Below, one piece after another: positions 30,271 to 35,066 of a stretch of 51,446 nucleotides of DNA. The stretch spans positions 1 through 51,446 of the forward strand of contig JAAXWO010000015.1 of the NCBI GenBank assembly GCA_013334965.1. The letters are read 5' to 3'. Position numbers and translations under genes: made by a program. How positions within the stretch are numbered: position 1 is the first letter of the stretch; each line of letters starts with the position of its first letter. The DNA comes from Chlorobiaceae bacterium (lineage in GTDB: Bacteria > Bacteroidota > Chlorobiia > Chlorobiales > Chlorobiaceae). Under the pieces are notes generated by a model. That model did not search any database, was not told where the DNA came from, and saw nothing but the letters and a program-made list of their open reading frames with translations.

Positions 30271-31305
30271 ATGCGTCTCAAAAATATCGCACTAACGCTA
30301 CTCCTTTTCACCTCGGTCTCACCCAGCCTGTCGGCCAGGTCTTTACCAATTCCAGTTTCAGCGACCAGCGTCTCCGCAGACCGACTGCCCGACACAAAAG
30401 TCCGCCTCGGAAAAGTCACGGTGACCAAGGATGTTGTCTACTCGACGATTCCCGGCTACCGTCCCTTGCTGCTCGACCTCTATACGCCTGCCGGCAAAGG
30501 CCGTCGACCGCTGATCGTCTACATCCATGGCGGCAGCTGGACCAACGGCTCAAAGCGTTCCACAGCAAACTTCCAGGATTTCCCCGGAGTGCTTGCCGCT
30601 CTTGCAGGACAAGGTTACACCGTCGCATCAGTCGACTATCGGTTGAGCAGCGAAGCGAAATTCCCGGCCGCAGTCCAGGACATCAAGGCAGCAATCCGCT
30701 ACCTGCGTGCCAACGCGAACCGCTACGGAATCGACAGGAGCAGAGTGGCCGTGTGGGGCGCCTCCGCTGGAGCACACCTCGCCGCGATGACCGCGTTCAC
30801 CGGCGACGAAGCGTCGCTTGAACCCGTCGACAGGAGCAACCCGGACCAGTCAGATAGCGTCCAGGCCCTTGTCGGGTGGTACGGCACCTACGAATTGCCC
30901 GGCATGTTCAGGTACGCCATGTCAGCGCCTCCGGTAACAGGCGTCCCCATGTCACCCGAAGAAGCGTCCGAAATTACCGGCCCCCTGAACTTCTTCGGTT
31001 GCACCATGGACGGCTGCCCCCCCGAAATATTCGTAAAAGGAAGCCCGATCAGCTTCGTCGACAAGCATGATCCTCCGACCCTCCTCATCCACGGCACCTC
31101 CGACACCAGGATACCGTCGGAACAATCAGTGGAACTCTATAATGCCCTGAAAGCCTCAGGAGTCAAAACCGACCTCCTGCTGATCGACAGAGCCAGCCAC
31201 GACTGGCTTGGAAACAACCAAAAAGCGACAGCTTCAGCATCGAGGAAAGCGGTCGCGGTAACTTTCGACTGGCTGAGAAAGGTCTTCAGTGAAGGGGGGA
31301 AATAA
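30271..31305 (+). CDS. Secreted alpha/beta hydrolase (carboxylesterase-like)
   Basis: A 344-residue enzyme. A Sec signal peptide (MRLKNIALTLLLFTSVSPSL) precedes the domain. The oxyanion motif HGG (86-88) and the triad Ser165 in WGASAGAH, Asp278 in HGTSDTRIP and His310 in ASHDWLG place it in the hormone-sensitive-lipase/BD-FAE-like esterases. Two Cys pairs in FFGCTMDGCPPE may form a disulfide in the periplasm. The ATG at 30271 was chosen because it starts the signal peptide. It is followed at once by the first copy of the inverted-repeat element. Confidence 0.88.
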   Translation: MRLKNIALTLLLFTSVSPSLSARSLPIPVSATSVSADRLPDTKVRLGKVTVTKDVVYSTIPGYRPLLLDLYTPAGKGRRPLIVYIHGGSWTNGSKRSTANFQDFPGVLAALAGQGYTVASVDYRLSSEAKFPAAVQDIKAAIRYLRANANRYGIDRSRVAVWGASAGAHLAAMTAFTGDEASLEPVDRSNPDQSDSVQALVGWYGTYELPGMFRYAMSAPPVTGVPMSPEEASEITGPLNFFGCTMDGCPPEIFVKGSPISFVDKHDPPTLLIHGTSDTRIPSEQSVELYNALKASGVKTDLLLIDRASHDWLGNNQKATASASRKAVAVTFDWLRKVFSEGGK

Positions 31306-31310
31306 GAACA

Positions 31311-31402
31311 GGACCAAAGGGACTTGAAGAACGAAAATGTAAAAGCCCGCTCGTCCCAGGTAACCGACCCTGCCGGGCCAACCCTTATCTCCTTTTGGTC
31401 CC
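31311..31402. repeat. Inverted-repeat element, copy A
   Basis: GGACCAAAGGGA (31311-31322) is imperfectly inverted as CCTTTTGGTCCC (31391-31402). The left 30 nt match copy B (32480-32509) at 28 of 30 positions, in the same orientation. The left arm shows 9-nt phasing of GGAC units as in the element at 143-238. No coding capacity. Confidence 0.75.
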
Positions 31403-31461
31403 CTGAGTTCTTCTTTATTGTTATCTTTCAGGTACAACCTGTAACAAGGGAGTAACCAATC

Positions 31462-32169
31462 GTGTCTGATCAGGAAACAAATCGGGCGAAATCGCTGCCG
31501 ATCCGGAGAACTTATCTCGACCGGCAGACGCCGTTCAGCTTTTCCTGCATGCGCTGCCTGAAATGCTGCGAATCAAAAAAAATACAGGTCAACCCTTACG
31601 AAATTGCGCGACTTGCCCGGAATCTGGGGATATCGACGACTGAATTCATTGCCGGGTATACTGACGGTAACGGCACATTCCTGAAATTCGACGAACAGAA
31701 CAGATGCACCTTTCTCGGTCCCGAAGGGTGCCTTGTTCATGCCGACCGACCGCTCGTTTGCAGACTGTATCCGCTCGGGCGGCATTTCAACGACCGTAAA
31801 GAAGAGTGGTTTTCAGAAATAGAGCCGGACACGGAATGCCGGGGCGAGTACGGCGACGATACATCTATCGAAAACTATCTTGCCGAACAGGAGGTTCAAG
31901 CCTACACACAAGCGGCTGACAGTTATCTCGACCTGCTCTGGGAGATGATGAATCTGCTTGAAGAGACGGCCGACGACGAAGGCGCCTCCGCAGATTCGGG
32001 ATCAACCTCAGTCGACGAACGCGACATGCCTGAAAACGGGGAGTGGCTCGACATGGATATGGCAGTCAGAAACCATTGCCTCCGGAAAGGGCAGCCGTGT
32101 CCCCTCGATCTTGATGAAAAAACCCGCATGCATCAGGAAGTAATACGTCTCTGGATAAAACAATCATAA
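31462..32169 (+). CDS. YkgJ-family cysteine-cluster protein
   Basis: A 235-residue protein of the YkgJ (CxxCxxCC, zinc- or iron-chelating) family. The N-terminal cluster is FSCMRCLKCCESKK (Cys29, 32, 35, 36). Cys82, Cys90 and Cys100 follow in the NRCTFLGPEGC ... RPLVCRLYP block; the second half is acidic with a further Cys pair (HCLRKGQPC). The family is thought to bind metal or an Fe-S cluster, but its function is not established. The start is GTG at 31462 with AAGGGAG at a good distance. The small secreted peptide gene follows after 13 bp, and the pair is bracketed by two repeat elements. Confidence 0.85.
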   Translation: MSDQETNRAKSLPIRRTYLDRQTPFSFSCMRCLKCCESKKIQVNPYEIARLARNLGISTTEFIAGYTDGNGTFLKFDEQNRCTFLGPEGCLVHADRPLVCRLYPLGRHFNDRKEEWFSEIEPDTECRGEYGDDTSIENYLAEQEVQAYTQAADSYLDLLWEMMNLLEETADDEGASADSGSTSVDERDMPENGEWLDMDMAVRNHCLRKGQPCPLDLDEKTRMHQEVIRLWIKQS

Positions 32170-32182
32170 ACGGAGAAGAGCC

Positions 32183-32458
32183 ATGAACAAACGCTCAAAA
32201 AAAGCCATTGCGATGGCTGCGGCCGTAACATCACTCGGAGCGGCACTCGGCGTTGCGACCGAAGAGTTGCATGCTGAAAGCGCCGCACCTGCAAAGGAGG
32301 CCAAAGCCATTAAACTGGATAATGTAAAAGCCGATTCAGCACAGATCAAGCTCTCCAACCAGCACAAAGGCTCAACGCAGATTAAAATGTCCGATCAGCA
32401 CAAAATCCCGACAGACAATAAAGGGTCAAACGCGATAAAGTGGGAATACAAGAAGTAG
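32183..32458 (+). CDS. Small secreted repeat peptide
   Basis: A 91-residue protein. A Sec signal peptide (MNKRSKKAIAMAAAVTSLGA, Ala-rich, probable cleavage near LHAES) precedes a 50-residue polar, lysine-rich region with four IK dipeptides: KAIKLDN, two copies of the unit QIK(L/M)S(N/D)QHK, and NAIKWEYKK at the C-terminus. No Cys. I do not recognise the family. A GGAGAAGAG Shine-Dalgarno sequence supports the start. It is translated downstream of the YkgJ-family gene (13 bp), so the two probably work together or share regulation. Confidence 0.7.
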   Translation: MNKRSKKAIAMAAAVTSLGAALGVATEELHAESAAPAKEAKAIKLDNVKADSAQIKLSNQHKGSTQIKMSDQHKIPTDNKGSNAIKWEYKK

Positions 32459-32478
32459 GAAACCCAGGAAGCAAGAAC

Positions 32479-32570
32479 TGGACCAAAGGGACTTAAAGGA
32501 CGAAAATGTCAAGCCCCTTCATCGTAAGCATCAGGCCTGCACGGACAAACCGTTGGGTCCTTTTGGTCCA
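32479..32570. repeat. Inverted-repeat element, copy B
   Basis: TGGACCAAAGGGAC (32479-32492) is inverted as GTCCTTTTGGTCCA (32557-32570), 13 of 14 pairs complementary. Same orientation as copy A, 1.17 kb away. A T-run (32580-32585) follows the right arm, so the hairpin may also end transcription of the YkgJ/peptide pair. Confidence 0.75.
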
Positions 32571-32644
32571 TTAAGCCGTTTTTTCATTTGGGTTATTCTT
32601 GCACCCCCTTTGTGAAAACCTGTCTCGGACCTTACATCCCCCAC

Positions 32645-33094
32645 TCAAACCACCTGTTCGAACAGCTCCCGCTCCAACCCCCTCCGCGTCACCAGTCCAC
32701 CAAGCTTCTTCCCGCCTCCGTAGACCCATTTGCCGAACTCGATGGCGGCGTTTTCGTACTGCCCCTTGTTGAGCAGTTTCAGGAGCGTGCTGTTTTTCAG
32801 GTTCTGGGCCCCGGCGTTGTAGGCGAAGTCCACGAGGGCGTCGAACTGGTTCTGGTTGATTTCGACGGTAACGTAGCGGGTAACGGCAGCTTCATACTCC
32901 CCGAGGGTGGCACGCATGATGTCGTCAGCCTGTTCCTGCGTAATGGGGGAATCGGTCAGCTTTACCGCACGGCCGTCGGCGTACCTCGTTGAGCCGTAAC
33001 CGATCGTGGGGATTCCTGCCGGACAACGGTAGGGTTTGGCCCTGAAGCCTTCACTCTTTCTGATGAGGTTTAAACAACCTTCTGATACTTGCAT
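32645..33094 (-). CDS. GH24 phage-type lysozyme (endolysin-like)
   Basis: A 149-residue muramidase with no signal peptide. The GH24 catalytic pattern is Glu15-x8-Cys24-x5-Thr30 in SEGFRAKPYRCPAGIPTIGYG, the Cys-for-Asp variant common in phage lysozymes. The rest (QFDALVDFAYNAGAQNLKNS, LVTRRGLERELF) matches the family throughout. No holin, spanin or other phage gene is nearby, so it is an orphan, probably acquired from a phage. ATG at 33094 was preferred over an in-frame TTG at 33136. A terminator-like hairpin lies about 50 nt upstream in the leader. Confidence 0.9.
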   Translation of the reverse strand: MQVSEGCLNLIRKSEGFRAKPYRCPAGIPTIGYGSTRYADGRAVKLTDSPITQEQADDIMRATLGEYEAAVTRYVTVEINQNQFDALVDFAYNAGAQNLKNSTLLKLLNKGQYENAAIEFGKWVYGGGKKLGGLVTRRGLERELFEQVV

Positions 33095-33146
33095 CTCTTG
33101 TCGTGTATGGTTTGTGGAATTGGTGAAACCGATCAACAGACACCTG

Positions 33147-33185
33147 AAAAAAAACGGGTTGCTCGCCGATCAATAACCGCAACCC
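33147..33185 (-). terminator. Terminator or attenuator in the lysozyme leader
   Basis: GGGTTGC and GCAACCC (33156-33162 with 33179-33185, 16-nt loop) are followed on the minus strand by G and eight T residues (33147-33154). It points leftward and ends about 50 nt before the lysozyme ATG. Confidence 0.6.
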
Positions 33186-33266
33186 TTTATTTAAATAGGT
33201 AATAAATCACATATAATTTACCAACGCACGACAGTTTATGTCAGTCATGGGAACGATATAAAAGAA

Positions 33267-33312
33267 TAAAGCGAAAAAGGCTGCCCGGTATGACGCAGCC
33301 TTTTTCGCTTTA
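33267..33312. terminator. Strong bidirectional terminator after sqr unit
   Basis: A perfect 18-bp stem (33267-33284 with 33295-33312) with a 10-nt loop. The A5/T5 tracts within the stem serve both directions. It lies about 40 bp beyond the stop of the small gene at 33351. Confidence 0.85.
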
Positions 33313-33350
33313 TGTTCAGTGCGTTCTGGAGTCGTAACCCCTGAAGATGC

Positions 33351-33608: not shown

Positions 33609-35066
33609 CTACTCCGGGATCAGGTACCAGAACGGATATCCCTTCGCCTTGTGAAAGAACAGGTAGTGGAGAATGAACTTCAGCCAGTGGCCGGCAAGAC
33701 CGGCTTCGCCGACAGAGTAATTCATGTCGCGGCCCCATTCGGGATACTTGTCCCAGTCGGGAACGACCGGAAAAAGGGTCATCGAGGCGCCGAGTCCGTC
33801 GAACGATCCGAAACCGGCCGACACGATGCAGGCTGCACCCATTCGGCTCATCGAAGCCTTGTGGTGATGCTCTTTGTGGCCGCCCAGGATCTGCTCTGCG
33901 ATGTTGAGCGCGACGATCTTTCCCATAACCCCGGAAGGCATACCGGTACGTGGCGGCGTCGGGAATATCTGGCGTCCGCTCGGGCTCGACATGGGTTTGG
34001 AGATCGGATGCGGCGGGGCAAAGGCAATGCCTGCCGCGTAAACGTTTTTGTAGAGCGGATTCTGGTAAACCGTCGGCCAGTCGTTTGCAGACCAATCCTC
34101 GAAGGCCTTGGGGGTATAATCGGCATCGACCTTCATGAACTTGCTCGGTGCGAAAATCTTTTCGGTGATGTCGGCGCCGCTCTTGTCGACGGCGGTCATG
34201 CCGACGCCCGAGAACGAGGGAATGAGCATGGCGAAATCGAACTCCTGGGTCTTCATTTCACCGTCGAGGGTTTCATAGTAGGCGACTCCCGGCTCTACCT
34301 TGTAGACACCCGCCCTGCGAATCCAGTTGATTCCGTACTCAGCAAGGAGTGATTCCGTGAAAACCTTGGTTGGGGTAATGTAACCGCCCCTTTTGATGAA
34401 CGCGCCGCCCATGCCGAAGTCGCCCAGTTCGTACTCGTTCGAGATCCAGGAGATCTGCGCCATGTCGCTCAGGCCGCGCCTCGAAATTTCGTAGGCGACG
34501 TTCAGTATGTATTCGAACGCGGCGCCCTGGCAAGTCGCCATGGCATGACCGGTACCGATGAGGAATCGCTGCTTCTGGCCGGCCTGCATTTTTTTAATGC
34601 TCTCCTGCAACTGCTCCCATGCGTGCGCCGCATGGCTGTAGGTGCAGACCGAAAGGCTGTTCTTGTCCGGACCAAGGCCTTCGGTAGCCTCGAAGTTCAG
34701 CTTCGGGCCGGTCGCGTTGACGAGGTAATCATAGGTGATGTTCTCAAGCTGCCCGGCACTCTCGCCTGAGGTGTATTCGATCGTGACGTATCCGCCATCG
34801 TATCCCGAATCTCCTTCGGGATGGATTTCAAGAGCCTTGGCCTGCTTGAAGACGATGCCCCAGCGGCTGTAGACCTTTTCCAGTTTGAAGCGGACCTGGT
34901 CGATGGTCATCTGCCCGACGCCGACCCAGATGTTCGAAGGTATCCACTGATAATAGCTGTTGGGAGAGACAACGACGACCTCATGATGCTTTCCGAGCTT
35001 CTTCTTGAGAAACGAGGCACATGTATGGCCCGCTACGCCGGCCCCTAAAACGACGACCTTTGCCAT
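33609..35066 (-). CDS. sqr: Sulfide:quinone reductase
   Basis: A 485-residue FAD flavoprotein that oxidises sulfide to polysulfide and reduces membrane quinone, feeding electrons to photosynthetic transport. The N-terminal FAD motif is VVVLGAGVAGHTCASFLKKK (residues 4-23). Cys141, Cys179 and Cys413 are candidates for the redox cysteines; Cys16 lies in the FAD site. The C-terminal helices (AGHWLKFILHYLFFHKAKGY) give monotopic membrane binding. The subtype cannot be fixed without a tree; a green-sulfur-bacterial membrane type (type IV-like) is my best guess. A sigma-70 promoter predicts a leader of about 220 nt, which contains a small upstream ORF. No good Shine-Dalgarno site of its own. Confidence 0.9.
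   Translation of the reverse strand: MAKVVVLGAGVAGHTCASFLKKKLGKHHEVVVVSPNSYYQWIPSNIWVGVGQMTIDQVRFKLEKVYSRWGIVFKQAKALEIHPEGDSGYDGGYVTIEYTSGESAGQLENITYDYLVNATGPKLNFEATEGLGPDKNSLSVCTYSHAAHAWEQLQESIKKMQAGQKQRFLIGTGHAMATCQGAAFEYILNVAYEISRRGLSDMAQISWISNEYELGDFGMGGAFIKRGGYITPTKVFTESLLAEYGINWIRRAGVYKVEPGVAYYETLDGEMKTQEFDFAMLIPSFSGVGMTAVDKSGADITEKIFAPSKFMKVDADYTPKAFEDWSANDWPTVYQNPLYKNVYAAGIAFAPPHPISKPMSSPSGRQIFPTPPRTGMPSGVMGKIVALNIAEQILGGHKEHHHKASMSRMGAACIVSAGFGSFDGLGASMTLFPVVPDWDKYPEWGRDMNYSVGEAGLAGHWLKFILHYLFFHKAKGYPFWYLIPE

Follow-up and report, generated by a model that had tools for sequence, protein, structure and literature searches.

A linked gene pair for a YkgJ-type cysteine-cluster protein and a putatively exported lysine-repeat peptide in Chlorobiaceae: a candidate Fe-S maturase and its proposed substrate

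Results

Organization of the locus

The window, that is the whole stretch of 51,446 nucleotides analyzed here, belongs to a Chlorobiaceae genome of 2.48 Mb in 20 contigs and has a GC content of 55%. Its features are compiled in Table 1. The original prediction had described a two-gene unit consisting of a metal- or Fe-S-chelating family protein and a small secreted peptide, and both parts were confirmed: the first gene product scores 50.6 bits with PF03692 (YkgJ/YcgN), whose cut-off is 23, and the second is a lysine-repeat peptide with predicted export. The repeat QIK(L/M)S(N/D)QHK, reported earlier to occur twice, is present as QIKLSNQHK and QIKMSDQHK, encoded by a tandem duplication whose two 36-nt units are 72% alike. 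Only 13 nt separate the YkgJ stop codon from the peptide start codon in the window, and 13-25 nt do so across the loci read.

Table 1. Features of the gene pair and its surroundings in the window
Feature	Position	Strand	Size	Remarks
TrkA-type and nitroreductase-type genes				both named by eye; form with the abhydrolase gene a conserved three-gene run upstream of the pair
Abhydrolase gene	30271-31305			last gene of the three-gene run
Left hairpin element	31298-31401	+		first arm from 31311, 6 nt past the abhydrolase stop codon
Left direct repeat	31298-31348	+	51 nt	30-nt core 31311-31340
Inverted arms of left copy	31311-31323 with 31389-31401
YkgJ/PF03692 protein gene	31462-32169	+	235 aa	GTG start; candidate Fe-S maturase
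Exported peptide gene (predicted)	32183-32458	+	91 aa	signal-like leader, hexad [ST]xQxK repeats, C-terminal NAIKWEYKK
Tandem units encoding lysine repeats	32336-32407	+	2 x 36 nt
Right hairpin element	32467-32590	+		lies 3' of the pair, whose genes converge with the phage-lysozyme-like gene
Right direct repeat	32467-32517	+	51 nt	30-nt core 32480-32509
Inverted arms of right copy	32479-32499 with 32550-32570			81% complementary
Phage-lysozyme-like gene	32645-33136	-		downstream of the peptide gene
Sulfide-quinone-reductase-like gene	33609-35066	-		beyond the lysozyme-like gene

The YkgJ-type protein

The window protein contains cysteines at positions 29, 32, 35, 36, 82, 90, 100, 126 and 206. 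All nine are invariant in 13 sequences of the pair type, the close ones of which are 51-67% identical to the window protein. In 28 diverse PF03692 proteins C29, C32, C35, C36, C82, C90 and C100 are invariant and C126 is nearly so, such that the window protein shares the same eight cysteines with the family at large. Its C-terminal part (about residues 145-235) is common to the pair subfamily and to proteins from G271. An AlphaFold model built from a 28-row alignment reached a pLDDT of 86.4 and a pTM of 0.82, as compared with a pLDDT of 49 for a poor model built from 13 rows. For the 28-row model, no known SAM-binding fold was recognized by Foldseek against the PDB (best E value 0.49), VIA-align gave a best Z score of 5.7 with an rmsd of 3.8 over 75 residues that comprise C-terminal helices only, and the sequence search of solved structures yielded a best E value of 0.17. 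YkgJ/PF03692 proteins occur in 86 of 247 genomes of the phylum and in nine of 14 control genomes. A longer YkgJ paralogue of about 256-271 residues (L009-L019 and L106) is encoded near a small cysteine-rich protein in several genomes and near a membrane protein gene that, labelled by eye, we take to be QmoC-like.

The lysine-repeat peptide

The window peptide did not match any Pfam or NCBIfam model at 1e-3. Twelve peptides were aligned, and motif and residue counts refer to the 11 intact ones, with the frameshifted L043 peptide excluded. All 11 share a leader with the consensus MNKxTKKAxALAAAVTSLGASLGVA, which by eye spans about 26-31 residues in the window peptide. The mature part, defined as all residues after residue 26, is polar and free of cysteine. 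The hexad [ST]xQxK occurs 35 times in the 11 peptides, as compared with a mean of 2.1 and a maximum of 7 in 1000 shuffles, and 51 of the 107 distances between consecutive lysines are exactly six, so that lysine recurs roughly every six residues. The ratio of lysine to arginine is 118:5 in the peptides, 93:186 in the partner YkgJ proteins and 357:375 in 14 other proteins of the window. From the difference between peptides and partners it follows that lysine itself is conserved and not merely positive charge. One peptide (L024/G105) is devoid of most repeats and of the IKWE end.

Distribution, linkage and decay of the pair

Whether the two genes are always linked was a question raised along with the original prediction. 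The peptide profile matches 13 of 86 Chlorobiaceae genomes, and a YkgJ reading frame adjoins the peptide in all 13, with degraded units in G068 and G078. These counts are by genome; many loci represent one genome twice. A peptide lacking a YkgJ frame was not encountered among the Chlorobiaceae matches. The arrangement resembles that of RiPP loci, in which a leader-bearing precursor gene lies beside, and is inherited together with, a gene for an enzyme, here presumably YkgJ. Phylum-wide, the peptide profile matched 17 of 394 genomes at E values up to 0.01; besides the 13 Chlorobiaceae, these are four weak matches (L155-L158, E 0.004-0.0075). When each species was represented by a single genome, the scan returned 11 pair loci, all from Chlorobiaceae and among them Chlorobium ferrooxidans DSM 13031.

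The pair is found in about five genomic contexts. Most loci reside beside an ABC-type ATPase near ligA; the others are the window site, a site common to C. ferrooxidans and L032, that of L030, and remnants in L033/L034 located upstream of a glycosyltransferase gene. Both genes are conserved together under purifying selection, as judged from dN/dS values of 0.11-0.44 for the YkgJ and peptide genes in three comparisons. They also decay together, for degenerating units usually have both genes affected: G068 (L034:6010-6257) and G034 (L102) keep remnants with a similar internal deletion that fuses the beginning of the YkgJ gene to the repeat end of the peptide gene, G084 retains a YkgJ fragment, and in G074 the YkgJ gene is shortened and the peptide missing. 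G063 possesses a full-length YkgJ gene without the peptide, and G078 one with a frameshifted peptide.

Among 30 PF03692 loci the Chlorobiaceae one is the only combination of YkgJ with a lysine-rich peptide; none of the other 29 has such a partner, which sets the window protein apart from the remainder of its family. Likewise, no such peptide adjoins the two YkgJ relatives of G271, which belongs to another family, although they have the same C-terminal part. A named counterpart did not emerge, in agreement with the original prediction, where the pair had not been recognized, and a literature search did not retrieve a description of it. The pair is thus a real, linked unit that has apparently not been described.

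Several lines of search addressed mobile elements and defence. Viral contigs gave 23 pattern matches, none of which could be confirmed, and a single weak phage match was seen; in PHROGs the YkgJ protein had one weak match (phrog_38238, E 0.0022) of unknown function. Plasmids yielded three weak matches to YkgJ, the best of the long 256-aa paralogue type without such a peptide alongside, and the peptide was not found in them. Neither gene of the pair was matched by PADLOC, and carriage on phages or plasmids as well as membership in a defence system were dismissed. The record NZ_CP061968.1 (L210) is named a Klebsiella plasmid, and yet its genes resemble by eye those of an anaerobic Gram-positive bacterium; it is perhaps a mis-binned contig.

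The flanking repeats

Two copies of a repeat in the same orientation, about 1.17 kb apart and just outside the two genes, had been predicted and were found exactly there (51 nt, 84% identical, spacing 1169). Beyond these two copies, the 30-nt core was not matched again in the window or its own genome with up to three mismatches allowed; zero matches are expected in shuffles of the window. The RNA fold of the right copy is better than that of shuffled sequences (z -2.45, 2 of 200 as good), and that of the left copy is not clearly so (z -1.24, 24 of 200 as good). Within the genome neither copy has a closer match than the other (76% over 103 nt, E 2e-12), the next match having an E value of 1e-4.

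The repeats have further relatives. The genome contains 12 exact occurrences of the arm GGACCAAARGGAC, and frequently two of them face each other. When one mismatch is allowed, the 13-base arm gives 25 matches versus 23 for a reversed control; since this is near the control level, recurrence was judged on the 12 exact matches and on BLAST, which with the right copy as query found 24 segments in the genome. With E values up to 10, including many weak ones, some match to the right copy exists in 20 of the 21 genomes of the genus. A strong expansion of the hairpin family, with 78 BLAST segments as opposed to 24 and 35 candidate places, is seen in the sister genome G018 of the same genus.

The context was assessed for 17 of the 25 arm matches, generally one per site. 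A gene 3' end lies on the left side of 12 of the 17 sites and on the right side of 11, eight being situated between two gene 3' ends. Six fall within reading frames of at least 100 aa; four of these are one-mismatch matches and possibly due to chance. Shortly past one arm-like site (L072, G000:C20, about 63,000) there is a lengthy run of tandem CCACTAT units. Intrinsic terminators consist of a G+C stem with a loop of 3-8 nt, followed by a T run. Neither flanking hairpin appeared in the list of the terminator scan, and their loops measure about 50 nt or more; for both reasons they are not textbook intrinsic terminators. Promoter and terminator scans were at chance level, and the sole Rfam match, isrD, had an E value of 0.75 and stayed under its gathering score.

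The insertion site

The abhydrolase gene is present in 13 of the 21 genomes of the genus, the genome of the window included. Downstream of it the pair was found in none of the 12 others, among which L108, where the sequence stops at this gene, is uninformative. That relatives carry an empty site, for which the original prediction had recommended a search, is borne out by L114, L115, L116 and L117, in all of which a 52-aa gene comes within reach after the abhydrolase gene; in the window this gene is located past the lysozyme gene. The quinone reductase (SQR) gene is within reach as well in L115 and L117, and L112 has the lysozyme gene and lacks the pair. The site 3' of the abhydrolase gene (window 31306-33350; L109-L119) harbors differing inserts in nearly every genome and in this respect resembles a small insertion hot spot.

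Among 16 YkgJ proteins placed in a tree, that of the window clusters with L024-L027 of the sister genus (support 98/96), and the pair is absent from the 20 other genomes of the window's own genus. Because of this nested position, the absence from congeners and the empty site in relatives, the pair in the window was probably acquired horizontally.

Discussion

The cysteine-cluster gene is followed by the lysine-repeat gene, an order suggesting, though not proving, that the first product modifies the second. We propose a two-gene operon in which a dedicated Fe-S maturase would modify lysines of an exported multi-repeat peptide in a RiPP-like manner, a reading to which we assign about an even chance of being correct. 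As outlined here, the first gene would provide a cytoplasmic PF03692 (CxxCxxCC) protein with a probable Fe-S cluster, and the second gene the substrate dedicated to it, in which a signal peptide precedes hexad repeats and every sixth residue of these is a lysine. The putative enzyme would act on the hexad lysines ahead of export; with regard to the chemistry, N-methylation is a first guess and the simplest option. The flanking repeats would not take part in peptide modification. Counting against the proposal are the full-length YkgJ gene of G063 that has no peptide, the frameshifted peptide of G078, the two G271 relatives devoid of such a peptide, the weak similarity to FliB, the failure to recognize a SAM-binding fold, and the L024/G105 peptide with most of its repeats missing.

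The proposal of YkgJ as a lysine modifier is based on the analogy with FliB, where a cysteine-cluster protein likewise coincides with an exported protein, and on the regularly spaced lysines, the best conserved feature of the mature peptide. FliB is reported to methylate flagellin lysines in the cytosol ahead of export, to have eight highly conserved cysteines and to carry a [4Fe-4S] cluster on a cysteine motif, CX4CX3CC, which the authors of that study compare with PF03692 (PMC8598068). About eight conserved cysteines including a CxxCxxCC-type cluster are present in both proteins, both genes adjoin a gene for an exported protein, and lysine modification prior to secretion would fit the pair studied here. 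On the other hand, the cysteine motif of the pair-type proteins is CX2CX2CC (13 of 13 aligned), the window protein comprises 235 residues as opposed to 373 positions in the FliB model, and the partner is a short repeat peptide instead of flagellin. Furthermore, pair-type proteins attain at most 13.5 bits with the FliB model NF038110, whose cut-off is 85 bits: this value stems from the C. ferrooxidans orthologue and is confined to the cysteine region, whereas the window protein gave no match at E values up to 10. None of the 394 genomes of the phylum exceeded the cut-off. FliB is the nearest characterized analogue, but the YkgJ protein of the pair is not FliB.

Examples of RiPP precursors paired with their maturases are bufferins with MNIO enzymes and repeat peptides with radical-SAM enzymes. 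Like these, the pair combines a short precursor made up of a leader and a repeated core with a single adjoining candidate maturase gene. It differs in that neither gene product matched a domain of radical-SAM, MNIO or other known RiPP enzymes and in that the core is cysteine-free and lysine-based. A more far-reaching version, in which a stand-alone CxxCxxCC Fe-S protein that is neither a radical-SAM nor an MNIO enzyme would be the only maturase, modify every lysine of the peptide and define a new RiPP class, is put forward tentatively and with some doubt.

How the pair arrived at its site bears on the original prediction that the flanking copies had moved or duplicated it as a cassette. Movement as such is upheld by the empty site and the several genomic contexts. 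The uniqueness of the 30-nt core to the two copies and their mutual best match likewise favor the view that the repeats delimit a mobile or duplicated unit. Against this role stand the recurrence of the arm type across the genus, for the most part where genes have their 3' ends, and its absence from all pair loci read in other genomes; independent copies of the pair are hence not flanked by the same repeats, and the intergenic flanks of five such loci contain no bracketing inverted repeats at all. We regard it as very improbable that the repeats brought the pair here, and the cassette explanation is probably wrong. Instead, the flanking repeats look like gene-end hairpins of a genome-wide family. 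A hairpin of this type seems to close each transcription unit, and mobility is then not needed to explain the bracket around the pair. Local duplication or a shared origin may still account for the fact that neither copy has a closer relative in the genome than the other.

As regards function, the two genes could share an operon without an enzyme-substrate relationship, YkgJ serving in metal handling or regulation and the peptide remaining unmodified as a structural or surface protein that would, for example, keep Fe(III) minerals off the cell. PF03692 is in fact named as putatively zinc- or iron-chelating, and the carriers include C. ferrooxidans and the L304 Chlorobium MAG, both of which are listed among photoferrotrophic Chlorobium (PMC8302410), which hints at a possible link between the pair and iron oxidation. 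However, the strict hexad and the preference for lysine over arginine suggest lysine chemistry rather than charge alone, and nine of the 11 peptides carry little net charge (-2 to +4). This reading is accordingly held to be rather unlikely. A role in competition, with a bacteriocin-like secreted peptide directed against relatives and a YkgJ protein that matures it or confers immunity, would agree with a pair that is patchy, horizontally spread and readily lost. Yet a dedicated exporter or peptidase does not accompany the pair across all neighborhoods compared, the polar mature part has no membrane-active stretch obvious to the eye, and PADLOC recognized neither gene, leaving this possibility quite improbable. 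Under the preferred reading, a maturase acting on lysines of the exported peptide, the product itself may serve at the cell surface, in competition or in contact with iron minerals.

In the literature searched, FliB is the only PF03692-related protein to which a reaction has been assigned. If the proposal holds true, the pair would add a PF03692 enzyme with a non-flagellar peptide substrate, and other unassigned YkgJ proteins may be protein-lysine modifiers as well. With its short and repetitive partner, the pair-type YkgJ makes the chemistry of the family easy to assay. For anaerobic phototrophs, some of them iron-oxidizing, the pair would then represent an extra route of peptide modification.
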